From IMG/VR virus record IMGVR_UViG_3300005453_000089, positions 1 through 28,610 of that record: a DNA stretch of 28,610 nt, one strand, 5' to 3'. Each line of letters begins with the position of its first letter. The stretch's first letter is position 1. Source of the DNA: a virus. The translations under genes were made by a program, and so were the position numbers. Shown here one piece after another: positions 4,363 to 20,014 of the stretch. The notes under the pieces are model-generated. The model made no database searches, had not been told where the DNA came from, and worked only from the letters and a program-made list of their open reading frames with translations.

Positions 4363-5558
4363 TCCCAGTCGTCATCCAGCTTCAGCTTGTTAGGTTTGGA
4401 CTTTGGAGACGGTTCCTTCTTCAACCGTGCCTCCGTTTCCGCCCAACCGTCTTCATCCTCGTCTTCCTCCTCTTCTGTCTCTTCAGGGAAGTCGTCGTCT
4501 TCGTCCTCTTCAATGACTGGCTTGGGAGCCGGTTTGACAGGTTTGGTGGCCTTCGGAAGCTCCTCTTCCTCATCTATCACTTTGGGTGTAGATTTGGAAG
4601 CTGTCTTTGGAGCGGGTTTGGGAGGAGGTTTTTCGTCTTCCTCGTCCTCTTCCCAGCTTTTCGCTTTGGTAGGCGATTTCGCTGGCGCTTTCGCTTTCGG
4701 AGCGAACTCTTCCTCTTCCTCGTCCTCTTCCAGAGTTGAGGCTGGCTTGGTTTTCGGAGGTTCTTCCTTCCTCCTAGGGGTGTATGGGATTTCGTCCTCT
4801 TCATCTTCTTCCACCTTTCCTGGGTTCACTACCTGGGCCACTGCTTCGCCCTGGTAGAAGATGTCCTTGATCTGGTCGTACGAGAGATGAACGAATACAT
4901 CGTCCAGACACACGACCTTCTCCAAGATCTCGTCCCCGTAAGGCTGTTTCCGAGGCTTGAAGTCGATGCTCTCGGCCTCTAGGTAGCTGAACGAACCGAA
5001 AGTCTTCTCAGTGAATCCGACCCGTAGGGTGAATCCATCCTCAAGGTGGAAAAATCGATCCCACCCTTCTTCCTCATCTGAGTTTCGGATTCGCGCATCG
5101 AGCAACCGCCCGAACAGGTGGTAGGAGACGTCCCAGATCTGCACCCCACGATCTGGGTCTCTCAGGTCGATGATGTTGAAGAGTTGGCGCTGTTTGGGTG
5201 CCAGATCCCGGATGAGCTGTTCGTTCTCTTCCCCTCCATTCCTCATTAACTCGGCCCGATACTCGCAAATCGGACAGGGTTGACGGAGGGTCATTCGAGG
5301 ACAAACGATGGTGTCTTGGTTTCCCCCAATGGAACGGTGGGCATAATAGGTTCGCTCCCAGTGGAGAGAACCTGGGTCCGCATAGGGGTTTCCTTTCCCT
5401 ACCACGTAGGGGAGGATGTCAATGTACATGACCCCAGCCTTGGGCCTGAACATGCTGATCCCCTCCGGGATTCGCAGGCAGGCTGAAAAGGTGCGGGATG
5501 TCTGCTGTTCTGCCCGAGCTCGGGCGTCAGTATAACGACGGTTACTGGTCGCTCTCAT
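4359..5558 (-). CDS. gp32-like single-stranded DNA-binding protein with very long charged tail
   Basis: The first ~245 residues resemble the T4 gp32 core. A zinc-ribbon pattern His-X11-Cys-X8-Cys-X2-Cys (ending CPIC) closely matches the gp32 ligand spacing. From about residue 249 to 399 the protein becomes low-complexity. Blocks of Glu/Asp alternate with Lys-Pro-Ala stretches and end in LKLDDDWE. SSB acidic tails normally recruit replication partners, but this one makes up over a third of the protein. SSB would coat single strands for the polymerase, the UvsY-like mediator and the recombinase. Its start overlaps the 52-aa membrane peptide by 17 bases. The serine-rich ORF opposite the tail is only its antisense shadow. 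Confidence 0.85.
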   Translation of the reverse strand: MRATSNRRYTDARARAEQQTSRTFSACLRIPEGISMFRPKAGVMYIDILPYVVGKGNPYADPGSLHWERTYYAHRSIGGNQDTIVCPRMTLRQPCPICEYRAELMRNGGEENEQLIRDLAPKQRQLFNIIDLRDPDRGVQIWDVSYHLFGRLLDARIRNSDEEEGWDRFFHLEDGFTLRVGFTEKTFGSFSYLEAESIDFKPRKQPYGDEILEKVVCLDDVFVHLSYDQIKDIFYQGEAVAQVVNPGKVEEDEEDEIPYTPRRKEEPPKTKPASTLEEDEEEEEFAPKAKAPAKSPTKAKSWEEDEEDEKPPPKPAPKTASKSTPKVIDEEEELPKATKPVKPAPKPVIEEDEDDDFPEETEEEEDEDEDGWAETEARLKKEPSPKSKPNKLKLDDDWE

Positions 5559-5700: not shown

Positions 5701-6202
5701 CGGACTTCGCCTGAGGTTTTCCGGCCATCCGCCGGACGGCTGTCTTGGTCATCTCTTCTACCGCCTTCCTCCCCTCGGGGTCGGTCTTGACGGTAGAATA
5801 GTACCCCAGTGACAGCAGCTTGATCATCATCTCTAACGATGCCTTTTTGGCCTCCAATGCGCCTACAGCAGCTTGGAGGATGTCAAATTGCTGTCGGGCC
5901 TCAAGGAGGTTCTTCTGGGCCTGCTGGACACGCTTGTCCTTGATGACTACATCTTGAATCCCGGCCTCAGTCAGCTTGGCCAACCCGAAAGCTCGCGGGT
6001 CCTGTCGGACCTCACTCGAGACCTGAGCTTCAATCCGCTCACTCTCAATCCGAGCCTGGTCATAAATAGACCGCGCCTCAGCCAGGAGGTTGGAGACGGC
6101 GAAGAAGTTGGTCGGCAGCCGGATGCATTCCTTGTCCAGCGCCATGGGGTCAATCCTGGCGAGTTTCTGTAGATCCTCAACGCTGAATTCGAGCTTTTCC
6201 AT
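5687..6202 (-). CDS. UvsY-like recombination mediator
   Basis: The protein is 171 aa, mostly helical, with a heptad-rich centre. The order of features matches T4 UvsY: an N-terminal helix pair, a basic/acidic helix with ESERIEAQVSSEVRQ, a conserved-looking LTEAGIQDVVIKDKRVQQAQ segment, then a C-terminal hydrophobic helix LGALEAKKASLEMMIKL-like. UvsY loads the recombinase onto SSB-coated DNA, and here it is encoded just before SSB and RecA. The start ATG is preceded by AGATAA exactly 6 nt upstream, whose TAA is also the stop codon of the upstream gene. The assignment is from pattern and context, not strong sequence identity. Confidence 0.6.
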   Translation of the reverse strand: MEKLEFSVEDLQKLARIDPMALDKECIRLPTNFFAVSNLLAEARSIYDQARIESERIEAQVSSEVRQDPRAFGLAKLTEAGIQDVVIKDKRVQQAQKNLLEARQQFDILQAAVGALEAKKASLEMMIKLLSLGYYSTVKTDPEGRKAVEEMTKTAVRRMAGKPQAKSDDNS

Positions 6203-6427: not shown

Positions 6428-7344
6428 CTGAAAATCGCCTCCCAGCAAGCTGCTGCCAGACCGGCATGCTTCGATTCGTGGAAAGGATGTGAGAAGATGT
6501 CGATGACTTTGAAGGCTTGCGCTGCCGCTCGACCACCCCCCAGCAGAACCTTTCTGGCGTAGGCCAGTGTCAGCCACCGGATGGTTTCGGGGTCTTCCAT
6601 CTCCAGCTTCTTCAGCAGTGAAGCAGTAGTGGCCCAGTCCTTCTGGGGGGAGAAGAGTGATCGGACCAACTCGATAGCTTCCTCCTGTTGTTCAGAGGTG
6701 CTCTGAATCGCTTCGATCTGGTTCTCCTCACCCTCGACATGGAGTGCCTGCTCTAGGAGTACCAGCGCCTTCCGAGCCGAACCTTCTGAAGCTTTCGCGA
6801 TCTCATCAAGGACCGTATCCGAGAGATCGCGCTTCTCTCTCTGGAGCACCTTGTCCAACAGTACCAAAATCTCCTTCTCCGTGAGCGCTCGCAGCTTGAC
6901 CTCAGTACAGCGAGTGAGGACCGTTCGAAGCAGCTTCTGAGGATCTGTCGTTGCCAGGAAGAAGTAGACGTGATCAGGTGTGTCCTCCAGAAGCTTCAGG
7001 AGGGCATTCTGGGCATCGTTGGTCAGTTTGTGCGCCTCGTCAATCAACCAGATCCGGACCTTGCCCATCAGAGGTCGGACCAAAGAATGCCGGCGGATGG
7101 TGCGCACCGTTTCGACACCCTTGAAGTCGGCACAGTTGATCTCCAAGAAGTCACCCGGATCGCACTCCAGCTCCTGTGCCAGAATGCGAGCCAGAGTCGT
7201 CTTCCCAGTTCCTGAAGGACCTGAGAAGAGCAAAGCATGAGGCAGGCTGCCTTCTTGCAACATTTTGGACAGGAAGGCTACCGCAGCACCCTGTCCTATG
7301 ATGTCTTCGAACCGTTTGGGTCGGTATTTCTTGTAGAGTTCCAT
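6424..7344 (-). CDS. Sliding-clamp loader ATPase (RFC small subunit/DnaX-like)
   Basis: This 306-aa AAA+ protein starts MELYKKYRPKRFEDIIGQG, the standard opening of clamp loader subunits. Walker A GPSGTGKT is at residues 42-49, the Walker B DEAH is near 108, and the TRC arginine-finger motif follows. It would open the sliding clamp encoded at 9969-11012 and place it at primer junctions. A zinc-binding module like that of bacterial DnaX is not visible, so it is closer to RFC-small or T4 gp44 in layout. It overlaps the polymerase gene by 49 bases. No separate large or delta subunit gene is evident in the window. Confidence 0.93.
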   Translation of the reverse strand: MELYKKYRPKRFEDIIGQGAAVAFLSKMLQEGSLPHALLFSGPSGTGKTTLARILAQELECDPGDFLEINCADFKGVETVRTIRRHSLVRPLMGKVRIWLIDEAHKLTNDAQNALLKLLEDTPDHVYFFLATTDPQKLLRTVLTRCTEVKLRALTEKEILVLLDKVLQREKRDLSDTVLDEIAKASEGSARKALVLLEQALHVEGEENQIEAIQSTSEQQEEAIELVRSLFSPQKDWATTASLLKKLEMEDPETIRWLTLAYARKVLLGGGRAAAQAFKVIDIFSHPFHESKHAGLAAACWEAIFR

Positions 7345-8801
7345 CGGAGGAATTCCTTAACCTCACTTGTTATCTGTTTCGGGTCGTCAGGATGCACAAA
7401 GTATCCGTCTCGGAATTGGAAAGGTTGCTTTCCGTACCAGGACTTCTCTGGGTAGCAGATCTCATACTCGATCTGGGGTGCCACCACCAGCCAATCGAAG
7501 TGACGAGGCAGTTGGTGCATCGTGACATCCTCCACGATGCAGAGGTACTCTCGCAGTTCCTCTCGGACCACATCGGCCACGATGCTATCGTGGATCTGCC
7601 CGACGATCTTGCTTTGGAGCCCAGCTTTTCTCAGCCGGCGGTTGATTTGGATCAGGCTCCAGAGCAGACAGTGAAAGGCTGATCCTTGAATCGGGTAGTT
7701 CACCACAGCGTTCCGTGGGAAGAACCCCTGAACACGGAAACCAGATAGGAGGTCAAAATAGCCACGCTCTTGGTACTTCTGGTACCACTCTTTCCTCCAC
7801 CTCCCATAATCGCGGAATCGACGGTTCCAGAAATCGTCCTCGACCTGCTTTACATGGTACTCGAAGGTTCCAGGCACCGGTTCCTTCTCCATGTCACAAG
7901 CTCCCAATTCACGAATTCCCTTGTCTCGAAGGTGGTCATACAGAGACCGTCCATCCGGTGCCTTTAGGTTCCCCTTCCGAATCCAATCCCACAGAGCTCT
8001 GGCACAGGACTTGTAGAAGTCCCCATAGAATTGCGGGAAGACGAACTTGTTCTTCGCTCCGTACCGGATGTCTTTGGTGACCTGGCTGGGCTCTAGACAG
8101 TAGAGTTGAGCTGCCAGATCTCGGTGCATATCCTTCTTTGGATCGCGAATGTAGCTGATGAAATTCTCGTCCCGGTGATAGGCTGCTGAGACGACAACCT
8201 CTATCCCTTTGAAGTCGTTCTCCACCAACAGACACCCTTTGGAGGGGATGAACAGAGATCGGACCAGACGCGAAGCTTCCTTATCACGGACCGGGAAGTT
8301 CTGGAAATTCGGTGAGTCAGATGAAGACCGGTAGGTCCGGGCCGTATGGAGGTTGAACACCGGATGGATCCGCCCATCCGGTGCGATCTCCTTCTGGATG
8401 CCAAACAGAAACGTTCCCAAGATCTTTTCGATCTTTAGGTATTCACCAATCCTCTGAATGATGGGGACGTCGACCTCCTGGAGCACCTCTTCATCAACCG
8501 ACGGACGTCCTTTCTCCGTCAGCCGAGTGACCGGATACTTCAGCTCTTGATAGAGGATGTATGCCAATTGGTCACGGGAGGCGAGATTGGCATTCTCACC
8601 GAATCGCTTCCGCCAATGTTTCCAGAGTGGATCAGTGACGATCGCATGACGCAGCTTCAAGAGCCTCTGAGAAGCCTCCTCAATCGCCTCCTTCAACCGC
8701 TTCCGATGGATCCGAATGCCATTCTCCTCAACTCGGCTCAGTTCAATGGCACCATGGTGGAGGAGCTGGTAGCCTTCCTGGAGGAAAGGTTTAATCACCA
8801 T
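7296..8801 (-). CDS. Family A DNA polymerase (polymerase domain only)
   Basis: The 501-aa protein holds only the palm-fingers-thumb part of a Pol I-type enzyme. Motif A reads ENDFKGIEVVV (about residue 195). Motif B runs from RYGAKNKFVFPQFYG (about 245-258). Motif C reads GQIHDSIVADV (about 400). The catalytic Asp of motifs A and C are present, but motif C is HDS instead of the usual HDE. Proofreading and a UDG domain are on a separate upstream protein (8791-9972), which overlaps by 11 bases. AGGAG 7 nt before the ATG shows that the polymerase is made as its own chain. It would be the replicative polymerase, working with the clamp and loader encoded beside it. Confidence 0.95.
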   Translation of the reverse strand: MVIKPFLQEGYQLLHHGAIELSRVEENGIRIHRKRLKEAIEEASQRLLKLRHAIVTDPLWKHWRKRFGENANLASRDQLAYILYQELKYPVTRLTEKGRPSVDEEVLQEVDVPIIQRIGEYLKIEKILGTFLFGIQKEIAPDGRIHPVFNLHTARTYRSSSDSPNFQNFPVRDKEASRLVRSLFIPSKGCLLVENDFKGIEVVVSAAYHRDENFISYIRDPKKDMHRDLAAQLYCLEPSQVTKDIRYGAKNKFVFPQFYGDFYKSCARALWDWIRKGNLKAPDGRSLYDHLRDKGIRELGACDMEKEPVPGTFEYHVKQVEDDFWNRRFRDYGRWRKEWYQKYQERGYFDLLSGFRVQGFFPRNAVVNYPIQGSAFHCLLWSLIQINRRLRKAGLQSKIVGQIHDSIVADVVREELREYLCIVEDVTMHQLPRHFDWLVVAPQIEYEICYPEKSWYGKQPFQFRDGYFVHPDDPKQITSEVKEFLRWNSTRNTDPNGSKTS

Positions 8802-9972
8802 ATCCCATCTCTTGTCGTTGAAGCTTTGCCAGGTGCCACTCTAGCAAAGCATCCATGCCACCGTATCGGAGAAGAGTCCGTGGCTCGATCTCGGTGATCC
8901 GATTCAGACGACTCCGACCATTCCCGGTCAGGAAAGCTTCCACCTGCTGGTTGTAGGTAGGGACTCCGAGCCTCACCAGCGCCTGGAACTTCAGAGAACA
9001 GATACCTTGGCGGTTGTCCAGGACATGCGCCGCCAGCATGGTATCCCAACCCCACCTCACCACACCCCGCCCAAAGACGTGACGAGTCCAACGCTCCTCC
9101 ATCTTCAGGTTCGAGGCGATTTTCCAACATCGTTTCGAGAACAGAACCTCGGCAGTCGCAGCTTGCGTCCGGGGAGTCCAAAGGAAGGAGATGGTATGCT
9201 TCCCATTGGAGATGGCACAGGAGAAGATTCGACCCCCTGGCGTCTCAGGCTTTAGACAGTTGGTCTCGTAGTCTACCGCCACCCATCCCCCTTCCTCTAC
9301 AATCTCCCTGATTGTCTGTTCGATCTTGGCTTCATCGAAGGTGCAAACGATAGACCCGGTGTCAACCTGGGGACGGGGTCGATCTACCAGCTCAAAGGCA
9401 CTTCTGAGATGATCTAGGACGGCTCGGTCGAGTACAGGATGGTTGGCACGGAGGAGATAAGCTGGGTGATAGGTAGGACAGAGCCAGAAGTCAGGCAACG
9501 GGATCTGCCACCCAATCCAACGTTCGAGGTTGCCGATGTCCTGCCAGTAGGGGAGCAAGACACTCTGGAGTGCCGATCGTCCCAAGGTGATGACTACCTT
9601 CGGACGTAGCTTCTTCAGGACATTGTTCAGGTTGGGGTAGCAATAGAGGATCTGATCAGGTGTAGGTGTAGCGTTCCGAACCGGCCGACAGATGACCGAG
9701 TTGGTGACCCAGGTGTCCTCATCTAGGTCTACTCCGATTTCATAGAGTTGAGTTCGGAGAAGTTGACCCGAAGTGCCGACAAAAGGTCGACCTTTCTCAT
9801 CCTCAGTCTCTCCTGGGGCCTCTCCTACCACCAGAACCGAACGCTTGCCTTTCCCATAGGGAGGCATCTTGGGAGAACGACAATGCCGGTAGAGCCCACA
9901 GGCACCACACCGTGGCACGGTGGGGATATTCGCCTGATGAGAAGAGAGGGAAGTGTGGAAGAAACCCCTCAT
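8791..9972 (-). CDS. Family 4 uracil-DNA glycosylase fused to DnaQ-like 3'-5' exonuclease
   Basis: Residues 1 to about 190 are a family 4 UDG. The iron-sulfur ligands are Cys22, Cys25, Cys95 and Cys111 (C-X2-C-X69-C-X15-C). The active-site block GEAPGETEDEKGRPFVG is at residues 50-66, and the later motif reads CPTYHPAYLLR. Residues about 200-393 are a proofreading exonuclease with VAVDYETNCL (Exo I Asp/Glu), NLKMEERW (Exo II) and YGGMDALLEW (Exo III). The exonuclease would proofread for the separate polymerase encoded immediately downstream. UDG-like domains fused to phage Pol A enzymes are known (SPO1-type, from memory), but here the chain is broken before the polymerase domain. The start overlaps the clamp stop (ATGA). 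Confidence 0.9.
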   Translation of the reverse strand: MRGFFHTSLSSHQANIPTVPRCGACGLYRHCRSPKMPPYGKGKRSVLVVGEAPGETEDEKGRPFVGTSGQLLRTQLYEIGVDLDEDTWVTNSVICRPVRNATPTPDQILYCYPNLNNVLKKLRPKVVITLGRSALQSVLLPYWQDIGNLERWIGWQIPLPDFWLCPTYHPAYLLRANHPVLDRAVLDHLRSAFELVDRPRPQVDTGSIVCTFDEAKIEQTIREIVEEGGWVAVDYETNCLKPETPGGRIFSCAISNGKHTISFLWTPRTQAATAEVLFSKRCWKIASNLKMEERWTRHVFGRGVVRWGWDTMLAAHVLDNRQGICSLKFQALVRLGVPTYNQQVEAFLTGNGRSRLNRITEIEPRTLLRYGGMDALLEWHLAKLQRQEMGYGD

Positions 9973-11012
9973 TCAGCCTTCTCTTGCTCTTCAGCATTCG
10001 GTTTCCCCAGCACAGTGACGTAGACCCAGTTCTCTCCTTCCACCTTCAACCGTTCATCACTGATTTGAGCGTCCGAATAGTGCTCGGAGAGGTGCGCCAA
10101 TAGATCAGGAGAGATGAAGAACCGCAGCTCTGGACCTCGGTATTGGACACGCTTCACCTCACGATACCAGCCGCTCAGGCCTCGACCTTCAAGGCGGATG
10201 CGATCTTCCCTCAGAGTGACTTCAATCAACGGGTCACCAGCTCTGTCTCGTGCAAAGACAGCCGCTCGTTCACTGGCTTCTTTCAGACCCTGTGGGATAC
10301 GGATGGGATAGCCCTCAAATCGCGTCAGTGGAGAGAGGTCTGGATACTCATCCGCGAACCGCCGACACGACAACACCAACCCTGATTCGTTCCTGAAGTG
10401 AATCCAAGAGGGGGTGAGGCAAACTGATTCCATTCCTAGATCCAAGATCTGAGAGAGGGAGGAACCCCGAACCAATACCTTTTCAGTCAGACCCGTCGGA
10501 AACCGGTAGCGAATCATCTGGAGATTGTCACAACTCTCCATCCCTTTGGGAGTGAGATGAATACAGGTCAGCAGGAACTTCGATTCATCTGTCGAAACAC
10601 AATGGCGTACCAGCTTCAGTGCCTCCAAGAAGGTCTTGGGCAGAGGCTTCCACTGGTCTTCGGATGGGTTCTCAACCTGGTTGATAGGCAGGTGGATCTC
10701 AGCATCCTTCACCATCCCGAAAGCTCGACGCTTCCCTTTGAAGATGACTTCACCATTCTCTCCTTCCTCCACTGTCAATTCGGCATCAGGAAGCTTGTCG
10801 AGGATGTCTCGAAGGACCTGAGCCTGGATGGCACCATTGATTGGGAGGACGGTTCGCTTCCGACAGGCGATCTCGTCATTGAATGTCATGACGACACCAT
10901 CCTGAAAGCAGAAGCAGGAGCTCTGCTCGATGAATTCTCGGGAGCTCAGGCCAGGTTTGACTTGGTCAAGATCCCTGATCAGTTCCTCGCGTTGGATTGT
11001 CGTGGCGCTCAT
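9969..11012 (-). CDS. DNA sliding clamp (beta-clamp-like)
   Basis: The 347-aa length (from ATG 11012) fits three clamp domains. The protein begins MSATTIQREELIRDLDQVKPGL, the typical first helix of a beta clamp. It has repeated beta-rich segments and the domain-2/3 pattern LSCRRFADEYPDL, which is like the FPDY region of bacterial clamps. It would tether the polymerase and repair enzymes to DNA. An ATG at 11072 would add 20 residues that look unlike the family and lie deep in the preceding ORF, so the inner start is preferred. A strong SD is not seen at either. It overlaps the preceding small ORF by 47 bases. Confidence 0.85.
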   Translation of the reverse strand: MSATTIQREELIRDLDQVKPGLSSREFIEQSSCFCFQDGVVMTFNDEIACRKRTVLPINGAIQAQVLRDILDKLPDAELTVEEGENGEVIFKGKRRAFGMVKDAEIHLPINQVENPSEDQWKPLPKTFLEALKLVRHCVSTDESKFLLTCIHLTPKGMESCDNLQMIRYRFPTGLTEKVLVRGSSLSQILDLGMESVCLTPSWIHFRNESGLVLSCRRFADEYPDLSPLTRFEGYPIRIPQGLKEASERAAVFARDRAGDPLIEVTLREDRIRLEGRGLSGWYREVKRVQYRGPELRFFISPDLLAHLSEHYSDAQISDERLKVEGENWVYVTVLGKPNAEEQEKAE

Positions 11013-11173: not shown

Positions 11174-12136
11174 TCAGAATCCAAAGCCTCTCCGATAGGC
11201 TATCGCATGGTCTTCAGCGATAGCAGGGTCCAATCGGTTCTCCCGTGAGGAGATAAAGTTCTCCAACTGTTTCAGGTAGTGGAGGTTCACCATACAACGG
11301 GCCGCATAATCTGTCGGGCATTCTTGGGCCACATTCATTTTCATCTCGTCCTCATCTACCCAGGTCTGAACCTGTTGCAACCAGGCATCAACCTGACTAC
11401 GAATTATCTTGGGGACGTTGGTGTAGTGGGACCATTTTTCAGACCGTTGAGGGGAATCGTTTGAGATCGCTACGAGTGTCGGGGGCCGATCATACCGCCA
11501 CCTCCCTTCTCGATCTCGTTCTGGAATCAGAATCCCCCCATAGGCAGCGATCTTGATCCAACTAGCCGAGTCCACCGACCACCAGGGGTAACGCATCATC
11601 AGCTCCCAGGAAGTCATGGCGAACCCATGCGTCCGCACGATGGGACGGTATTGGTTCGAGGCAGGACACAGCAGCTTGAACAGCCCGTCTGCCCATTTAT
11701 AGTACCCACGTTTCGCCACACCTTGGCCTAGTCCGCCCACACCGAGCAGATCGTAGCCTTTCTCAATGTACCGCTCGACGAACTGGAGCGGCGTCTGGAA
11801 GTGTACTACAGGCACAGGTCGAAGTCCATGCTCTTGCTCGAAGTAGCATTGCACCTCCCAGGTCAGTTGGGGATTCGATATCACGTCCACCGTAGCGAAG
11901 AGGAGGTCTTCATTCCGGAGACACTTCATCAGGTAGGCGTATTGATCGCAGTACAACCTGAAAGCTGACCCTTTCTTCAGAGAGTAGAACGAGAAGTCCC
12001 CTTGGGTCCACCGTCCTGGAGGGGCCTCCAATTCCCGCCCATGCTTTCCAATGCGTTCTTGGAGCTTCAGGACGTGGATGTTGTAGAGGGAGTGCGCCCC
12101 ACTATCGATGAAGAGTGATTCCGAATAGAATTCCAT
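11174..12136 (-). CDS. dpdA: DpdA-like DNA 7-deazaguanine transglycosylase
   Basis: The 320-aa protein has the layout of the TGT/DpdA superfamily. FIDSGAHSLY (Asp11) is at the N-terminus, TVDVI is near residue 84, GVGGLGQG is at 132-139, and RTHGFAMTSW precedes YPWWSVDSASW with Asp189. In this family the two Asp residues carry out base exchange. DpdA replaces guanine in DNA with preQ0 or a derivative, protecting phage DNA from host restriction. No CxCxxC-type zinc cluster of bacterial tRNA TGT is visible. The gene is coupled to folE by a TGATG overlap and lies in a run queD-queE-folE-dpdA, which strongly supports the DNA-modification role. Confidence 0.85.
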   Translation of the reverse strand: MEFYSESLFIDSGAHSLYNIHVLKLQERIGKHGRELEAPPGRWTQGDFSFYSLKKGSAFRLYCDQYAYLMKCLRNEDLLFATVDVISNPQLTWEVQCYFEQEHGLRPVPVVHFQTPLQFVERYIEKGYDLLGVGGLGQGVAKRGYYKWADGLFKLLCPASNQYRPIVRTHGFAMTSWELMMRYPWWSVDSASWIKIAAYGGILIPERDREGRWRYDRPPTLVAISNDSPQRSEKWSHYTNVPKIIRSQVDAWLQQVQTWVDEDEMKMNVAQECPTDYAARCMVNLHYLKQLENFISSRENRLDPAIAEDHAIAYRRGFGF

Positions 12137-12696
12137 CAGTGTGGTGTGTAGGCGAGAGACAGGAACTCTTGGCGAACCTTGCCATCTTTCAAGAATTCCC
12201 CACGGAGTGCACTGGTCACGGTATGGTGACCCTGTTTACAGATTCCCCGTGACTCCATACAGAGGTGACGAGCTCGAATCACCACCCCCACCCCTTTGGG
12301 TTTCAGGTGCGTGTCCAACGCATCAGCGATCTGTCTCGTCAATCGTTCCTGTACCTGAAGTCGTCGAGCGTAAACGTCCACCAATCTCCCTATCTTGGAG
12401 AGGCCGACGATCCTCCCATTCGGAATGTAGGCCACCGTCACAGTCCCGAAGAACGGGGCCAAGTGGTGCTCGCAGTGGGAGTAGAAAGGGAGATCCCTCA
12501 CGACAACCATTTCATCATAGTTCTCTCCTCCATCTTCAAAGGCTCGGAGGATCTTCTCAGGGTTTTGGTGGTAGCCTCGGGTCCATTCCCTCCAGGCTCT
12601 GACCACACGCTTCGGCGTATCCCGAAGCCCTTCACGTTCCGGATCTTCCCCGATGAAGAGGAGAAGATCTCGAATAGCTTTCTCGACCTGTTTCAT
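12136..12696 (-). CDS. folE: GTP cyclohydrolase I FolE
   Basis: FolE converts GTP to dihydroneopterin triphosphate, the entry step of the 7-deazaguanine pathway. The 186-aa length is normal. The zinc/catalytic region [11 protein letters not shown] is present, as is the later RHLCMESRG with the third zinc ligand. The segment [25 protein letters not shown] is a family hallmark. The start is ATG 12696, which overlaps the queE stop as TGATG. A TTG one codon earlier is less likely. In a phage cell this enzyme would push host GTP into deazaguanine production. Confidence 0.96.
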
Positions 12697-13397
12697 CAAT
12701 AGCCTCTCTCAGGGTCTCCACCCAACGGAACTGGAGGTTGAGAACGGGAATCGAGCTGGTCAGCTCGGTAGAGTTTATGCACTTGCCACCCAGCTCGAAA
12801 AGGATCACCGTGCTTCAAGACCCATTGGACGATAGCTCGACGCAATTTGGGATCTTTTCGGTGTCCCCACTCAGGGTGAATCCAAATCACAGGCTGGTTG
12901 GGATTCAGGTAGAATTGGGCATCCCACAGGACCTTCCAATAGAACTCGAGGTCATCGGGCGTCTCGACGATGATCTTGAACTCATGGGCTTTGTCAATAT
13001 TCTCCTTCAGTGGCAGTTTCCACTTCTTTGGAGACAATGTGATCCAGTCGACGTCCCCTTGGATCGGAAAGCCTCCGCTCGTCTCCAAGTGGATGCGTGG
13101 GATAGGGTCTCGATTCGCCTTGAGTGCCGCCACCAGCGGACGCAAGTCGTAGATGCTGGGTTCTCCTCCGGTGATCACCACTATCTCAGCTTTCGTCTCA
13201 GCGGCCTCCTCAGCCAGTTGCTGCTCGTCCATCCGCGGGACCTTAGCCGGTTTGAAGTTCGGATGCCAGGTCCCAGCCGAATCGCACCAGGGGCACTTCA
13301 CCGGACATCCATAGAGCCGAATAAAGAAAGCCCGACGCCCCAGATGAACTCCTTCACCTTGGATGGTGAAGAACCGCTCGTGTACGAAGTATTCCAT
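12696..13397 (-). CDS. queE: 7-carboxy-7-deazaguanine synthase QueE (radical SAM)
   Basis: QueE is a radical SAM enzyme that turns 6-carboxytetrahydropterin into 7-carboxy-7-deazaguanine. The 4Fe-4S motif is C31-X3-C35-X2-C38, preceded by the substrate-site start [21 protein letters not shown] motif typical of SAM binding follows. The 233-aa length is standard. It is coupled on both sides: queD stop/queE start as TGATG and queE stop/folE start as TGATG. It is the committed ring-contracting step of the pathway encoded here. Confidence 0.96.
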
Positions 13398-13861
13398 CAG
13401 AATTTGACGTTGGAGGAGTTCTTCTCGTCCTCGTAGCAGGTGACCGAAACCACCCGCACTCCTCGGCTAAAGCTGCTGGGGTTTCGGTTCAGGATCTCCT
13501 GAACGTTCCTTCCAACCCACCGAGCCAGACCTTCCATCGAACAGTCGGACACCTTCACGATCTTGAAGAGGTGGCGATTATTGGAGACTGCCTGGAACTC
13601 GGCATCCCACTTCAGGAACTTCAGCAGGAGAGGATCATCAAGGTTCAAGAGGATGGTATGGTCGAAGTTCTCATCGAACCACGCCTTGACGTCATCCATC
13701 TTGCCGACGTCCAGGATGAATCCGCATGGGTCCAGCTTGTCGGCAGTCAAGGTGACCTCGAAGTACCAGTTATGTCCGTGAACTTGAGCACAATGCCCAT
13801 CGTGTTTCGGCTGACGATGGGCGGCTGGATACGGACCGAATCGTTTCGTGATCGTCATCAT
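13397..13861 (-). CDS. queD: 6-carboxy-5,6,7,8-tetrahydropterin synthase QueD
   Basis: QueD makes 6-carboxytetrahydropterin from the FolE product. The motif C24AQVHGH30 supplies the catalytic Cys and two zinc His, and His15 is the likely third ligand. ILDVGKMDDVK and FDHTILLN match the family core. The C-terminal CYEDEKNS contains the expected Glu. The 154-aa length is normal for the family. The gene overlaps the preceding DNA-binding-like ORF in an ATGA and is the first of the queD-queE-folE-dpdA run. Two tandem ATGs occur at the start, and the first is used here. Confidence 0.95.
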   Translation of the reverse strand: MMTITKRFGPYPAAHRQPKHDGHCAQVHGHNWYFEVTLTADKLDPCGFILDVGKMDDVKAWFDENFDHTILLNLDDPLLLKFLKWDAEFQAVSNNRHLFKIVKVSDCSMEGLARWVGRNVQEILNRNPSSFSRGVRVVSVTCYEDEKNSSNVKF

Positions 13862-14310: not shown

Positions 14311-15705
14311 TTACCAGGAAGAGACGACGCATGGACAAGAGACAGCCAGCTCTGAGGCCGTGTACACCACTCGAGAGGTGCTATGGCGACCACGCCTTGC
14401 TACCACCCAGTTGAGGCGGTAGAGGCCCATCCATTTCTCGGCTTCTGTCTGGTTGATGCCGATCATCCCAGTCACGTGAGCATTCTTCCGCTTGTCTTCT
14501 GAGAAGTTCGAAGGGCCGATCAAGTGAGCCGAATAGGCTGGTGCATCCGTCTGAGTGGCTGTGATCACCAGACAATGAAAGTCAAGGGCGATCCGACGCA
14601 GAATGATCCAGGTGCGATTGACCTGGTGACGGACATCTTGTCGGCTCGTCTCAGGCTCAGGCTTCAAGAGATCGGCATAATCCACCACGATCACATCAGG
14701 AACCCAACCCCGACGGATGAATTCTCGGACGTCGGATTCAATGGCAGAAGCAGAGACGATGTAGCCACCTTGCCGCTTCAGTCGGAGGCGGGGCTCTTTA
14801 GCCCCGATCGATTCTTGGAACCGGGCCAACGCTTCGCAAGCTTCTTTGGCTGAGAGACGTTCTTTGAACTCTCGATCCTCAGCCATCACAGTCCGCTCCT
14901 TCCCTACCACCCTGATCTCTTTAGGCCAGCGAATATGCCCAGGACCGATAGGGCGTCGAGCGATGCGAGTGATCAACCGTTCTTCCACCTCCAATTCGGA
15001 CATGTCTCCGAGGACGTAGTAGAGGACCCGACGCCGGGACTTCAAGGCTCGATATACCATCTCCATCAACCAGAAGGACTTCCCGCGCTTGTCAGGACCG
15101 GCGAAGGCCACGAAACAGGTCCGACGAAGCTGTTGGTGAAAGAATTCGCCTAAGGCACCTGGGAGGTGGATGATGTCTTCTTCCTGTTCCGAACGCAAGG
15201 CTCGACACACCAGCTCTTTATCAAACGGATTCAGCCAGGTGTCAGTGGCGAGATCAGCTCGCTGGAAGTTAACCACCTTGTCTTCTGCCTCCGCCAGCAT
15301 CCCATTTCGGATCATCTGGCCCAGTTCCTCGTGGAGGCGTTCGAGGCGGAGACGCCTGAAATATTGGCCTGCCTTGTCGATGATGAAATCTTCATTCAGT
15401 TCCTCAGGCCGCTGCTCTCTGATGAGGTTGAGGAACTGTTCCATCAACTCGACCTGATCGGGGTCCGTGTTCTTCTCAGCCCATTCCTGGAAGTAGGTCC
15501 AGAGGGCTTCTCTTGGAGGTTGGTGGTACTTGGCCCAATGTTCTCGGCACCACCGCCAACACCGATTGGACCAAGGAGCTCGGAAAGGTCGGCTCTCCTC
15601 ACCCAAGTGAGTCACCAACCGGTCGAGCACCCCCGGATGGAGCGCCGCACCCGCCAAAATCCAGTGCTCTTCCGAGACGGTAAAGTCTTGGACTTTCATC
15701 CTCAA
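14311..15705 (-). CDS. Replicative DnaB-like helicase
   Basis: The 464-aa protein has an N-terminal helical region (about residues 1-160) and a RecA-fold C-terminal ATPase. Walker A is AGPDKRGKS (near 203), Walker B is VIVVDYADLL (near 338), and the later ITATQTDAPAYS region is the DnaB-type motif H3/H4 Gln sensor. It would form the hexamer that unwinds the fork. TTG at 15705 overlaps the upstream stop (TTGA) and has GGAG 7 nt before it. An ATG two codons later (15699) is 13 nt from the same SD, so TTG may be the true start. The organisation suggests tight translational coupling to the unknown gene upstream. Confidence 0.9.
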   Translation of the reverse strand: MRMKVQDFTVSEEHWILAGAALHPGVLDRLVTHLGEESRPFRAPWSNRCWRWCREHWAKYHQPPREALWTYFQEWAEKNTDPDQVELMEQFLNLIREQRPEELNEDFIIDKAGQYFRRLRLERLHEELGQMIRNGMLAEAEDKVVNFQRADLATDTWLNPFDKELVCRALRSEQEEDIIHLPGALGEFFHQQLRRTCFVAFAGPDKRGKSFWLMEMVYRALKSRRRVLYYVLGDMSELEVEERLITRIARRPIGPGHIRWPKEIRVVGKERTVMAEDREFKERLSAKEACEALARFQESIGAKEPRLRLKRQGGYIVSASAIESDVREFIRRGWVPDVIVVDYADLLKPEPETSRQDVRHQVNRTWIILRRIALDFHCLVITATQTDAPAYSAHLIGPSNFSEDKRKNAHVTGMIGINQTEAEKWMGLYRLNWVVARRGRHSTSRVVYTASELAVSCPCVVSSW

Positions 15706-16334
15706 AGGTTATCTCCGATGAGAGACTGCCAGACCTTAAGGGGTCCTCCTGTCAGGAACCACTGGAGAGATTCCGGGTCATGTTGGGCCAGTTTCCATCG
15801 CCATTCTTCATACACCTGAGCTGGAGGTTGAGGGTAGTTTCGATAATCTCTAAAATAAGCAGATTCAATCTGGGGGAACTTCCGGCAGAAGGATGGCAAG
15901 GTCAAACAGCTAGGCACAAAGGGACGTCGATAGTTCCGGAAATACCACCGCATGAGATGGTCGACCCAAATCAGCTTGTTCGTTGCTGGGACATCTTCTC
16001 GAACTATGCCTGAATGGGGATGGAGCAGCTTCAAGAAAGCTCGAATGGCCAGATCCTCGGTACTGTATGGGTAGGGATGATTGCTTCGAAAGTATCGATG
16101 GTGGTTCTGTGCGAATCCTCGATAAGCTCGAATCCAACGTCCCCAATCTGACCAATTGTGTTGGGTGATCAGGTCGGGAAGTGTACTGGTCGAATAACCG
16201 AATGGCGATCGAAACTTCTCGATCAAGAATGGTGGTATGTAGATTCTTCGAGTCGTTTTTTGTTTCATCTCGACAAAAAGTCTGGAGGTTCTGATGTTCT
16301 GTCTTTTTGTCTTGTTCAAACAAAAATTTTTCAT
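15702..16334 (-). CDS. Hypothetical protein between the repeat cluster and the helicase
   Basis: The protein is 210 aa from ATG 16334, or 188 aa from an internal ATG at 16268. The first 22 residues of the long form are encoded by two copies of the AT-rich inverted repeats, so the short form may be the real one. The protein is rich in Tyr, Phe, Trp, Arg and His (NHHRYFRSNHPYPYSTEDL, LMRWYFRNYRRPF), suggesting a nucleic-acid-binding helical protein. No family was recognised. It is coupled to the DnaB-like helicase by a TTGA overlap. By analogy with phage replication modules it could be a helicase loader, which is an inference from position only. Confidence 0.65.
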   Translation of the reverse strand: MKNFCLNKTKRQNIRTSRLFVEMKQKTTRRIYIPPFLIEKFRSPFGYSTSTLPDLITQHNWSDWGRWIRAYRGFAQNHHRYFRSNHPYPYSTEDLAIRAFLKLLHPHSGIVREDVPATNKLIWVDHLMRWYFRNYRRPFVPSCLTLPSFCRKFPQIESAYFRDYRNYPQPPAQVYEEWRWKLAQHDPESLQWFLTGGPLKVWQSLIGDNL

Positions 16335-16550
16335 TCTAGTCGATCTGACTTTTTGTTGATTTGAAAAAAAAATTTCTTTACATTTACACCTCTCACCGAG
16401 AGGTCATGCGAATGTAAATGAGCATGAGCTCTCTCGTTTTTGTCGATCTCACAAAAAGTTTTGTTACAGATTCGAAGGATATTTTTGTCGATCTCACAAA
16501 AAGTTTCGTTGCGGACTGACATCGACTTTGTTTCATCTGAACAAAAAGTT
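16256..16550. repeat. Six inverted-repeat units, about 45 bp apart (candidate origin iterons)
   Basis: Six copies of an imperfect palindrome have arms TTTTTGT and ACAAAAAG. They lie at about 16257-16280, 16304-16326, 16350-16373, 16437-16465, 16482-16510 and 16526-16550. Units 4 and 5 are near identical (TTTTTGTCGATCTCACAAA core). The G of each left arm is at about 16262, 16309, 16355, 16442, 16487 and 16530, giving steps of 47, 46, 87, 45 and 43. One unit position is therefore replaced by a hairpin. The stretch is far more AT-rich than the rest of the window. It lies between the primase/winged-helix genes and the helicase. Confidence 0.75.
16381..16420. other. Nested hairpin in the centre of the repeat cluster
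   Basis: An outer inverted repeat CATTTACA (16381-16388)/TGTAAATG (16413-16420) encloses an inner perfect stem CCTCTC-ACC-GAGAGG (16389-16403) with a 9-nt bulge. It occupies the position where a repeat unit is missing. No T-run follows on either strand, so it does not look like a simple intrinsic terminator. It may be a cruciform or an origin core element. Confidence 0.6.
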
Positions 16551-17008
16551 CAGAGCAGTTCCCCGGGAGTCTCGTCCTCAGGTTCGGAGTAGGCTTCCTG
16601 GAGTTCGCGTTGGATCATCTTCTTCAGTCGGAACATCCTGAGGGTCCTTTCGGTCTTCCCTAGATACGTCGGATGAAAACCGGCCGGTGTGTCGTCGATC
16701 GGGTGCCAGGCATCACGTACCGGTTGAGGGAGGCGGTAGGGAGGGAAGACGCGAACGTGCATCCATCCCGGTGGACGTACCGGATGAGTCGATACCATGC
16801 CCAGTGCCTTCAGTCGACGAAGGATCAGGAACCACTGCCGAAGAGAGAGACCGACCATCATGATGGCTTCTTTGGTCTTATAGTAGGGAGGTGCCAGGTT
16901 GATCAGGTAGGCCATCACCAGAGTCTCCGTTGCGTTAAGCTTTCTCGTGCGAAAATCCCGGATGAGAGCGGCGGGAAGTATCCAGAAGGTATGTTCCTGG
17001 GGGTTCAT
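16550..17008 (-). CDS. Winged-helix protein beside the repeat cluster (possible replication initiator)
   Basis: The protein is 152 aa. The N-terminal segment FWILPAALIRDFRTRKLNATETLVMAYLINLAPPYYKTKEAIMMVGLSLRQWFLILRRLKALGMV has the look of a phage winged helix-turn-helix: a start helix, an ATETLV helix, and a recognition helix near SLRQWFLILRRL. The C-terminus is charged and helical. The gene is coupled to the primase by an ATGA overlap and its stop codon abuts the last repeat unit. DNA-binding proteins encoded next to iterons are often initiators that bind them. That is the inference here, and a transcriptional regulator is the main alternative. Confidence 0.6.
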   Translation of the reverse strand: MNPQEHTFWILPAALIRDFRTRKLNATETLVMAYLINLAPPYYKTKEAIMMVGLSLRQWFLILRRLKALGMVSTHPVRPPGWMHVRVFPPYRLPQPVRDAWHPIDDTPAGFHPTYLGKTERTLRMFRLKKMIQRELQEAYSEPEDETPGELL

Positions 17009-17874
17009 GGGTCCAAACCTGATAAACGCCGAATGAGCCGAATCTCACGAGGGGAAGCAGATCCGGGGTCTTTGGCGTCCAAGACGATGTTCTGTGTTCG
17101 GCCCGGGAAGGTCGAGAGATATCGGCAGAGCTCTCGAGCTCGTTCCTGGGCCACTGGTTCATTGTCGAAGCAGATCGTCCTGAAAGGAATGGCTGCCAGG
17201 CATCGTACCTGGGCCAGTGAGTATTGGGTGCCGAAGAGGGCTCCGGCTCCCGGTCCGATCTTCCAGACATCGAATGGGCCTTCGACAACCACAATTGAAC
17301 TATAGCAGAAATCGAGGCCGTAGACGATCTTTTTGTGTGGGATCTTCTCCTCTTTCGCTGAAGCCGAGAGGTACCGTTGCGCCACATTGCCGATGGCTCG
17401 AGTGGTCCAACTCACCCGTTCTCCCCGAAAGAAGATGGGGATGTAGATGCGCCAGCTGAGTCGTGGGGCGATTCCAATGCCTTCGATCTGCCAGGTTTTG
17501 ACGATCTCATCCGGATCTAACCCACGCTCAATCAGGTAGTTTCGGTGAGCGGGGAGGAGTGGACCTCGGTGGGAAGGTTCCCGCAAGACACCTTCAGCTC
17601 GAGGTACAGGTGGAGGAGGGGCGACTTGGTGCTCCTCCATCCATGCGCGCACCTGATCCCACCGGACACCCAGTGCCTCCCAGACGCGACGTGTCGGCAA
17701 TCCTCCACACCGCCAACAGGAGAAATAGTGGAAGAGCAGGTTGTATCCCAGGTGGAACCGGTGGGAATTCTTCCCACAGAAAGGGCAGTCTAGTTGGATC
17801 CACCCTGGCCGAGCGTGGTGATGTTGCCCGGCGAGGCGAATTTCAATGCCGATTTGCCTGAAGAATGCCTCCAT
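17005..17874 (-). CDS. DnaG-type primase (compact: zinc finger plus TOPRIM)
   Basis: The 289-aa protein makes RNA primers for replication. An N-terminal CHC2-like zinc finger reads CPFCGKNSHRFHL...FSCWRCGG (Cys-X2-Cys...Cys-X2-Cys). The central region has a primase-like strand pattern (WRIYIPIFFRG...TTRAIG). The TOPRIM core shows VVVEGPFDVWKIG with the catalytic Glu and TICFDNEP as the acidic metal-binding segment. It is much shorter than bacterial DnaG (about 580 aa) and lacks a visible C-terminal helicase-binding domain. ATG 17874 has AGGAAG 6 nt upstream, and the TTG two codons earlier is too close to it. It overlaps the SNF2 helicase gene by 32 bases. Confidence 0.9.
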   Translation of the reverse strand: MEAFFRQIGIEIRLAGQHHHARPGWIQLDCPFCGKNSHRFHLGYNLLFHYFSCWRCGGLPTRRVWEALGVRWDQVRAWMEEHQVAPPPPVPRAEGVLREPSHRGPLLPAHRNYLIERGLDPDEIVKTWQIEGIGIAPRLSWRIYIPIFFRGERVSWTTRAIGNVAQRYLSASAKEEKIPHKKIVYGLDFCYSSIVVVEGPFDVWKIGPGAGALFGTQYSLAQVRCLAAIPFRTICFDNEPVAQERARELCRYLSTFPGRTQNIVLDAKDPGSASPREIRLIRRLSGLDP

Positions 17875-19276
17875 CGCCAACTTCCTCGTCCGAATGAGCG
17901 CCGGTCTTTATTGGCGTTCTGGAGCGGAGGTCCTCCAGGAGGGCGGTCAAGAGATCGAGGCTGTCGGAGGTGGCAGTTCCGTGTAGCACTTCCTCCAGGA
18001 TCCGTGCCTTCTTCTGGAGGAGACGCATCTGCTTCTCCTCCAAGGTACCGTGGGCGATGAGATAGGTGATTTGGCAGGTATGGCGCTGGCCGATGCGATG
18101 AATCCGATCTTCGGCTTGTATCAGCTCAGCCGGCGACCAAGGGAGATCAATCGCCACGGCATGGTGGGCTGCGGTGAGGTTGATACCCACCCCTGCTGCG
18201 ATCCAGTTTCCCAGCAAGACCCGAGTCTTGGAATGGTTCTGAAACCGCCGCACCACTTCAGGCCGGAGGTTCTGGGGAGTACGGCCATCAATCACCACGG
18301 CAAGGGGTGATCCGAGCCTCTCCTTCAGCCAGTCAATCATTGCCGTGTGACCGGTGAAAGCTACCAGCTTGAGGTCAGGATTGGCTTCGAGGAAATCACG
18401 AATCCACTGGAGCACCCAGTGGCGCTTCTCTTTGGCTACCCATCGGAGCAGGTAGCCGATTCGCGTGAGCGCCTGGTTGCGAGCAGCACGTTCTACCCGA
18501 TCGGGGCGGATTGTCGCCAGCCACCCTAAAAAATCGTCCTCAGCCATCCGGTAGGTCTCCATGTCTGGCAGTTGGCCGAACACCACACGCCTCTCTTTCT
18601 CAGGTAGTTCATGGAGGACCTCTACCTTTCGGCGTCGAATCATCACATGCTGTCTCAAGATTCGGTGTAGCTCTTTGAGGTTCGTAGCTCCCCGGAACTG
18701 CCACCCCCAAGGGGTCCATCGAGGCGCACAATACCGCCAGGCGAACTTCTCACGAGATGGGAAGAGTTCAGGTCGAATAGCCTTTAGTACCGTCCAGAGT
18801 TCGATGGGACGGTTGGAGAGGGGTGTACCGCTCAGGCCGATTACCGAAGGGACACCTTTGACCAGTCGGAGAGCAGCTTTGGTCCGTTGGGCCGTTCCAT
18901 GCTTGATGAAGTGGACTTCGTCCAAGATCACGCACTTGGGTTTCAGTGCCAAAAGGCTGGGTAGCCAGGCAGCCAAGATGTCATAGTTCAGGACGAAGAA
19001 TTCTCCTTGGAGTTGCTTTACTGCCTCAGGCCGCCCGTTCAACACTTCGAGCGGAATGCGGAAGTGCATCCAGGCCTCGGCTCGCCAGTGGAACTTCACA
19101 CTGGCCGGAGTGACGATCACCACCGGTCGCAGCTCGGGGTGACGATAGATGTAGGCAAGGCTTTGGATCGTCTTGCCTAATCCCATCTCGTCAGCGAGGA
19201 GGGCCCGACCGCCGAACCTTTCAATGGCGGCCAGACCCTCCTCTTGGAAAGGGCGTAGCTGGACCACGTGGACCAC
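17843..19276 (-). CDS. SNF2-family (superfamily 2) DNA helicase/translocase
   Basis: The 477-aa protein carries both RecA-like lobes. Motif I is ADEMGLGKT in the N-terminal lobe, motif II is DEVH, and motif III is LSGTPLSNRP. The C-terminal lobe has VVAIDLPWSP-like and QAEDRIHRIGQ motifs, the SNF2 hallmark of motif VI. Enzymes of this type move along double-stranded DNA and remodel branched structures. In this phage it could do the fork-regression and annealing job of T4 UvsW, which is inference. The start is GTG 19276, with AGATAA exactly 6 nt upstream that also contains the stop of the sigma factor gene. Confidence 0.92.
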   Translation of the reverse strand: MVHVVQLRPFQEEGLAAIERFGGRALLADEMGLGKTIQSLAYIYRHPELRPVVIVTPASVKFHWRAEAWMHFRIPLEVLNGRPEAVKQLQGEFFVLNYDILAAWLPSLLALKPKCVILDEVHFIKHGTAQRTKAALRLVKGVPSVIGLSGTPLSNRPIELWTVLKAIRPELFPSREKFAWRYCAPRWTPWGWQFRGATNLKELHRILRQHVMIRRRKVEVLHELPEKERRVVFGQLPDMETYRMAEDDFLGWLATIRPDRVERAARNQALTRIGYLLRWVAKEKRHWVLQWIRDFLEANPDLKLVAFTGHTAMIDWLKERLGSPLAVVIDGRTPQNLRPEVVRRFQNHSKTRVLLGNWIAAGVGINLTAAHHAVAIDLPWSPAELIQAEDRIHRIGQRHTCQITYLIAHGTLEEKQMRLLQKKARILEEVLHGTATSDSLDLLTALLEDLRSRTPIKTGAHSDEEVGDGGILQANRH

Positions 19277-19798: not shown

Positions 19799-20014
19799 AG
19801 GCTTCCTTTCTAGCAGGCCTTACTGGGGCCTGTCAACGTTCAAAAAAGCAGGTTGCGTGCTGAACCTTAAGTCGTTGAGAATCAACATGTGGTGAATTTT
19901 CAAGATGTAAAGAAAATGTACACCGAAAACGCGATTTCGTTGACAACTTCCACAGAGTCAGCGTTTTCCCTGGGTGTAGCAAAAATTTACACGGTGTAAA
20001 AGAGATAACACACC
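19799..20014. promoter_or_regulatory. Divergent control region with several palindromes
   Basis: These 216 bases separate the leftward block from the rightward operon and hold no gene. Visible elements are CAGGCC-N7-GGCCTG (19814-19832), GTTGA-N3-TCAAC (19874-19886), further GTTGA half-sites near 19833 and 19939, GAAAACGC (19925)/GCGTTTTC (19961), TACACCG (19919)/CGGTGTA (19992), and a perfect TTTACAC-G-GTGTAAA (19986-20000). On the minus strand TTGACA, an 18-nt gap and TAGAAA precede the sigma gene but lie very close to its SD. On the plus strand TTGACA at 19940 has no good -10 partner. The palindromes are probable operator sites. Confidence 0.6.

Follow-up and report, generated by a model that had tools for sequence, protein, structure and literature searches.

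Gene content of the locus

The record analysed (hereafter the window, all 28,610 bases of it) ends inside a terminase gene and is therefore a fragment. It encodes a phage replisome comprising a DnaB-like helicase, primase, polymerase, clamp, clamp loader, single-strand binding protein and recombinase. The genes and features at the locus of interest, where an array of palindromic repeats lies between replication genes, are as follows:

14311-15705, minus strand: DnaB-like replicative helicase (phrog_19, E = 9e-25)
15702-16334, minus strand: helicase-loader-like protein, putative detached C-terminal half of an initiator; start at 16334 (spanning units 1-2) or 16268
16257-16279, plus strand: iteron unit 1, TTTTTGT-N9-ACAAAAA, with flank ACAAAAAGT on the plus strand
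16304-16326, minus strand: iteron unit 2, TTTTTGT-N9-ACAAAAA, inverted as judged by its flank (CTTTTTGT on the plus strand)
16342-16392, no strand: predicted duplex-unwinding element; of all 40-bp windows in the 28.6 kb, the least stable begin at 16342-16353
16350-16372, minus strand: iteron unit 3, one degenerate arm (A9), inverted as judged by its flank
16381-16420, no strand: nested hairpin, in the empty lattice slot between units 3 and 5
16437-16457, plus strand: iteron unit 5, perfect arms, N7
16482-16502, plus strand: iteron unit 6, perfect arms, N7
About 16525-16547, plus strand: iteron unit 7, ending just short of the winged-helix stop codon
16550-17008, minus strand: 152-residue protein with a predicted winged-helix fold, putative detached N-terminal half of the initiator and candidate iteron binder
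17005-17880, minus strand: DNA primase (phrog_47, E = 1e-28)

Elsewhere in the window, DNA polymerase is encoded by two overlapping ORFs (7296-8801 and 8791-9972), which match phrog_17 positions 477-828 and 835-1233. As these are consecutive parts of one family, polymerase is a second split replication gene. Genes resembling those for QueC, QueD, QueE, GTP cyclohydrolase and tRNA-guanine transglycosylase lie at 248-1326 and 11174-13861, a set which suggests 7-deazaguanine modification of the phage DNA.

A regular array of dyads

Six TTTTTGT-N7/9-ACAAAAA dyads occupy about 290 bp (16257-16547) of AT-rich DNA, at lattice points some 45 bp apart. Units 1, 2 and 7 have a spacer of 9 bp, and units 5 and 6 one of 7 bp; the conserved flank ACAAAAAGT places units 2 and 3 in the opposite orientation to units 1, 5, 6 and 7. 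Over the 14 arm bases, five units have at most one mismatch and six at most two; in 2000 dinucleotide shuffles of the array region the corresponding means were 0.01 (maximum 1) and 0.10 (maximum 2), so that dyad symmetry in the array is clearly above chance. No further copy with two or fewer mismatches was found elsewhere in the 28.6-kb window (chance expectation 0.02). Centre-to-centre distances are 47, 46, 86, 45 and 45 bp. The best-fitting lattice is 44.5 bp, and when six non-overlapping units were placed at random 3000 times, only 12 placements were equally regular. Coordinates, shuffles and lattice test thus confirm the six evenly spaced palindromes described in the initial annotation, as well as its two-level hairpin filling one slot and the end of the winged-helix gene at the last unit. 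A spacing of 45 bp corresponds to 4.3 helical turns; units therefore do not share a common face of the DNA, which rules out the idea of one-face phasing and makes a simple planar loop unlikely. Searches of IMG/VR for exact matches to the dyad unit, and of Rfam, gave no match.

AT content in the window peaks at the array segment (33-35% GC per 200 bp, compared to 54% overall), and by nearest-neighbour stability the least stable 40-bp stretch of all 28.6 kb (16347-16386) also falls inside it. An AT-rich, easily melted tract is therefore present beside the repeats, as in lambda-type origins. No TTATNCACA was found near the array, even allowing one mismatch, and in this the region does not conform to a DnaA-type oriC.

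The nested hairpin has the layout CATTTACA-CCTCTC-ACC-GAGAGG-TCATGCGAA-TGTAAATG. Folded as single-stranded DNA it is more stable than expected (z = -3.5), with none of 200 shuffles equally stable. It could be a priming site, a helicase-loading site or a cruciform, or it could be incidental. Two-level hairpins with an asymmetric bulge, similar in form, occur 5' of the gene in relatives (see below) that have only the loader part of the initiator (L005, 6691-6720; L023, 5326-5383; L048, 5897-5932; L014, 5314-5343), at about 30-80 bp from it, or about 400 bp in L014. A second kind of hairpin, with a stem of about 10-16 bp, a loop of mostly 20-30 nt and usually a T run after it, recurs ahead of the initiator gene in L006, L007, L025, L032, L044 and L050, and also at L023 5240-5300 and L055 about 6110-6200; it is perhaps the end of a small RNA. 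These long-loop hairpins were considered as counterparts of the nested hairpin and set aside: many in the fused forms are terminator-like, and so no homology was drawn.

GC skew, put forward with the initial annotation as a check on an origin here, gave a weak and mixed result. The cumulative minimum (15816) is near the array, but about 0.45 kb away from it and of small amplitude, with co-directional genes on either side. Third-position skew of the minus-strand genes changes across the array (permutation p = 0.03). In the contigs of nine relatives, the minimum falls at the locus in L025 alone (0.2 kb from its iterons), skew elsewhere mostly tracking other features. Because of the small amplitude and this single coincidence, skew was given little weight.

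An apparently divided initiator

The initial annotation placed primase and winged-helix genes on one side of the array and a helicase with an unknown partner on the other. The layout stands; the unknown gene, however, appears from homology to be the loader half of an initiator. An HMM built from the C-terminal domains of relatives' initiators (with the window sequence one of the ten in the profile) finds it with E = 1e-26, and the aligned domains share a conserved core, W-Y ... P ... F--KF--IE. The window gene itself has no direct family match. Its homologues match phrog_2514, 4880 and 391 over the loader domain, these being DnaD-like helicase loader, replisome organizer and O-like families.

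For the 152-residue protein, no sequence match was found in Pfam, PHROGs or NCBIfam, and the RepA_N domain models of Pfam and NCBIfam gave none either, so that it falls outside that family as modelled. As a search query it retrieved no relative. AlphaFold2 gave a poor model from the single sequence (pLDDT 49); only the model made with 17 relatives was used (pLDDT 86.9, order H-H-E-H-H-E-E), and as the relatives' alignment went into it, it is not fully independent of the presumed homology. The nearest PDB structures in Foldseek were MarR regulators and RepA replication initiators, and the nearest viral models were RepL or replication-initiator proteins; 4pt7, 4pql and 5kbj were listed by Foldseek and HMMER in the RepA_N comparison. 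Alignment with the winged helices of relatives, which match HTH_36 (Pfam), was weak (hhalign E 0.005, probability 7%). Kinship with them is thus suggested mainly by position and by a fold predicted on their alignment. Binding of the dyads by this protein is plausible, since homologous winged helices adjoin iterons in the relatives.

The winged-helix gene stops at 16550 and the loader ORF is separate and in a different frame, so the array does not lie within an uninterrupted initiator frame as iterons of lambda-type origins do. With a winged helix on one side and a loader-domain homologue on the other, the initiator appears to be split in two around its origin. The array can be read on the minus strand past the winged-helix TGA for 72 codons (16331-16549), giving 15-residue repeats (TFCEIDKN...), which are perhaps a relic of a coding linker.

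Repeats at the homologous place in relatives

Relatives were gathered by primase searches, which gave 8 and then 57 loci, with some contigs in both. The whole replication segment had no match among GenBank phages. The primase profile had none in bacterial and archaeal genomes, and no host was therefore assigned. Most of the loci have the gene order SNF2 helicase - primase - initiator - DnaB, and in most the initiator is a single protein with an N-terminal winged helix, a linker and a C-terminal DnaD/O-like loader domain. In L054, the DnaB homologue (7766-10072; 768 residues) has its helicase homology broken by about 300 residues that start with CLASGSMV and end with VHN, which looks like an intein.

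Nine relatives (L006, L007, L008, L025, L031, L044, L046, L050 and L054) have at least three repeats between the winged helix and the loader domain; in the window the array holds this place by position, the two halves being separate genes. In seven (L007, L008, L025, L031, L044, L050 and L054) the repeats are dyads 22-24 bp apart in linker-coding DNA directly past the winged helix. L006 has repeats in the same linker position at 17-bp spacing that are not clearly palindromic, and L046 has a 114-residue winged-helix gene, three GTGCTATGTATAGCAC-type iterons and then a loader gene. Dyad symmetry was significant (p ≤ 0.04) in eight of the nine. Repeat sequence varies by lineage while the position between the domains is kept, and dyads in the window stand about twice as far apart as the relatives' 22-24 bp, as though every second site had been retained. 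Three-copy repeats at 22-24 bp numbered seven in 42 kb of primase-DnaB intervals and none in the remaining 147 kb of the same loci; a three-copy repeat in L049 was left out, as it lies outside the initiator and codes for a repeat protein. A clear three-copy iteron array is missing from about half of the intervals searched, among them those of L003, L016, L026, L032, L035, L037, L039, L048 and L053.

In relatives, the stability of the DNA straight after the last repeat falls in the lowest 0-2.3% for its locus. Within 30 bp past the repeats, TATAATAA (one mismatch or fewer) is present in five of nine relatives (0.24 expected); this box is absent from the window. In L014, the closest relative (59% primase identity), an AT-rich intergenic region lies ahead of a short loader gene and follows a gene of 177 codons. 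This homologous region has CAAAAATTTTTG-type palindromes 18-37 bp apart (cluster at 5032-5140), with 18 such matches across the locus against 2.5 expected. No relative above 80% identity turned up in the collections searched.

Comparison with known origins

In lambda, ori lies in gene O, flanked by the initiator's DNA-binding part on one side and its helicase-loading part on the other, and has imperfect inverted-repeat iterons beside an AT-rich unwinding tract, with four iterons in lambda and six in the Stx phages 933W and P27 (PMC7466680). Dyad iterons and a predicted unwinding tract between initiator parts are likewise found in the window and its relatives. In contrast to these phages, the window has a putative initiator of two genes with the probable origin between them, a spacing of about 45 bp and a nested hairpin inside the array; it also encodes its own DnaB, primase and polymerase, and its proteins have no Phage_rep_O-type match.

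In RepA_N plasmids (pSK41, pTZ2162) and the PLE satellite origin, an N-terminal winged helix binds semi-palindromic iterons; the ori of pSK41 is central in rep, where it codes only for a dispensable linker, and the protein has a DnaD-related fold (PMC5703833, PMC7145576). The relatives described here, with repeats and an unstable tract in the linker DNA of an initiator gene, share this anatomy with pSK41 and lambda. The window differs in having no match to the family, a DnaB gene as partner and an apparently split initiator. Its layout also resembles that of SPP1, where genes 38, 39 and 40 are consecutive and separately encode an origin-binding protein, a helicase loader and a DnaB helicase, and where oriL, with repeats and an AT-rich unwinding element, lies within gene 38 (PMC6316719). 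Separate genes for binder (a candidate in the window), loader (putative in the window) and helicase, repeats and a known or predicted unwinding tract are common to both, whereas the origin of the window phage would lie between genes rather than within one, and its loader would be a DnaD/O-like C-terminal domain.

A putative theta origin and its alternatives

The candidate replication origin of the initial annotation is supported by nine relatives with repeats and a low-stability tract at the same place among primase, winged helix, loader domain and DnaB. On sequence grounds, the array segment is very probably the iteron-type theta replication origin of this phage. It has the layout of lambda and RepA_N origins in a variant form, with a split initiator, about doubled spacing and six units around a melting tract and hairpin. 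From the array, its position and low stability, the homology of the loader half, the predicted winged-helix fold and the recurrence in relatives, we infer binding, melting, helicase loading and initiation at this site. Dimers of the winged-helix protein would occupy the six dyads, bending or wrapping the DNA, and the resulting strain would open the AT-rich tract at the centre of the array (16342-16392). The winged-helix protein may hold the loader-domain protein at the origin, where the loader would deliver the phage DnaB helicase; the phage primase, which starts synthesis, and polymerase would then act.

A local transcriptional operator array, at which the winged-helix protein or another regulator acts on its own gene or on the operon of loader and helicase, the site having no role as an origin, is an unlikely explanation. 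The resemblance of the predicted fold to MarR-type regulators and the position of the array upstream of the loader and DnaB genes, on their coding strand, would fit such a role. However, a sigma-70 promoter scan found no site in the array region, the units are missing from other intergenic regions (including the divergent one at 19799-20014), and six units spread over 290 bp, with the least stable tract of the genome among them, are more than an operator would call for. In relatives, moreover, the equivalent repeats are part of a coding sequence, and any promoter of that gene would lie upstream of them.

It is less likely still that the array is coding, with one initiator produced by read-through of the TGA (16550-16552) together with frameshifting on the T9 run near 16364-16372, or that the split is a sequencing artefact; either way, an origin of the lambda style would remain. 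The winged-helix frame is open past its stop to 16331, overlapping a loader frame open from 16403, and as 45 bp is 15 codons, units 5-7 stay in frame. Against this, joining the halves takes two recoding events or errors, the joined frame is also missing in L014 (the closest relative and an independent contig), and TGA is an ordinary stop in adjacent overlapping genes. Least probable, and barely credible, is that a plasmid prophage uses the array as a centromere-like partition site: parS or parC sites are typically regular dyad arrays, but among the annotated genes of the record (a fragment, so that partition genes could sit outside it) neither ParA nor ParB was recognised, and the neighbouring genes are replication genes.

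The primase tree joins the window, L014 and L003 (which has a fused initiator) in one clade (100/96), and sets split and C-only forms within groups of fused ones; fission from a fused ancestor is therefore the simplest reading. L046 lies elsewhere in the tree, which requires a second fission event, apparently an independent split of the initiator around iterons. Because the gene is split at the linker, the window origin would be intergenic and free of coding constraint. A more speculative proposal, possible but doubtful, is that the initiator gene broke at its own origin to give a two-protein initiator, and that the unconstrained intergenic origin then acquired six units, spaced twice as far apart as in the family, around a melting tract at the centre and a hairpin serving as a specific helicase/primase loading or priming site.

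The probable origin of a widespread, uncultured phage group has thus been placed by anatomy alone. Across this group the iterons appear to vary freely in sequence and spacing, yet they stay between the DNA-binding and loader halves. In pSK41 Rep the linker is dispensable, which poses the question of whether an initiator linker has any function beyond holding the origin; two apparently independent fissions may provide a natural test of it.
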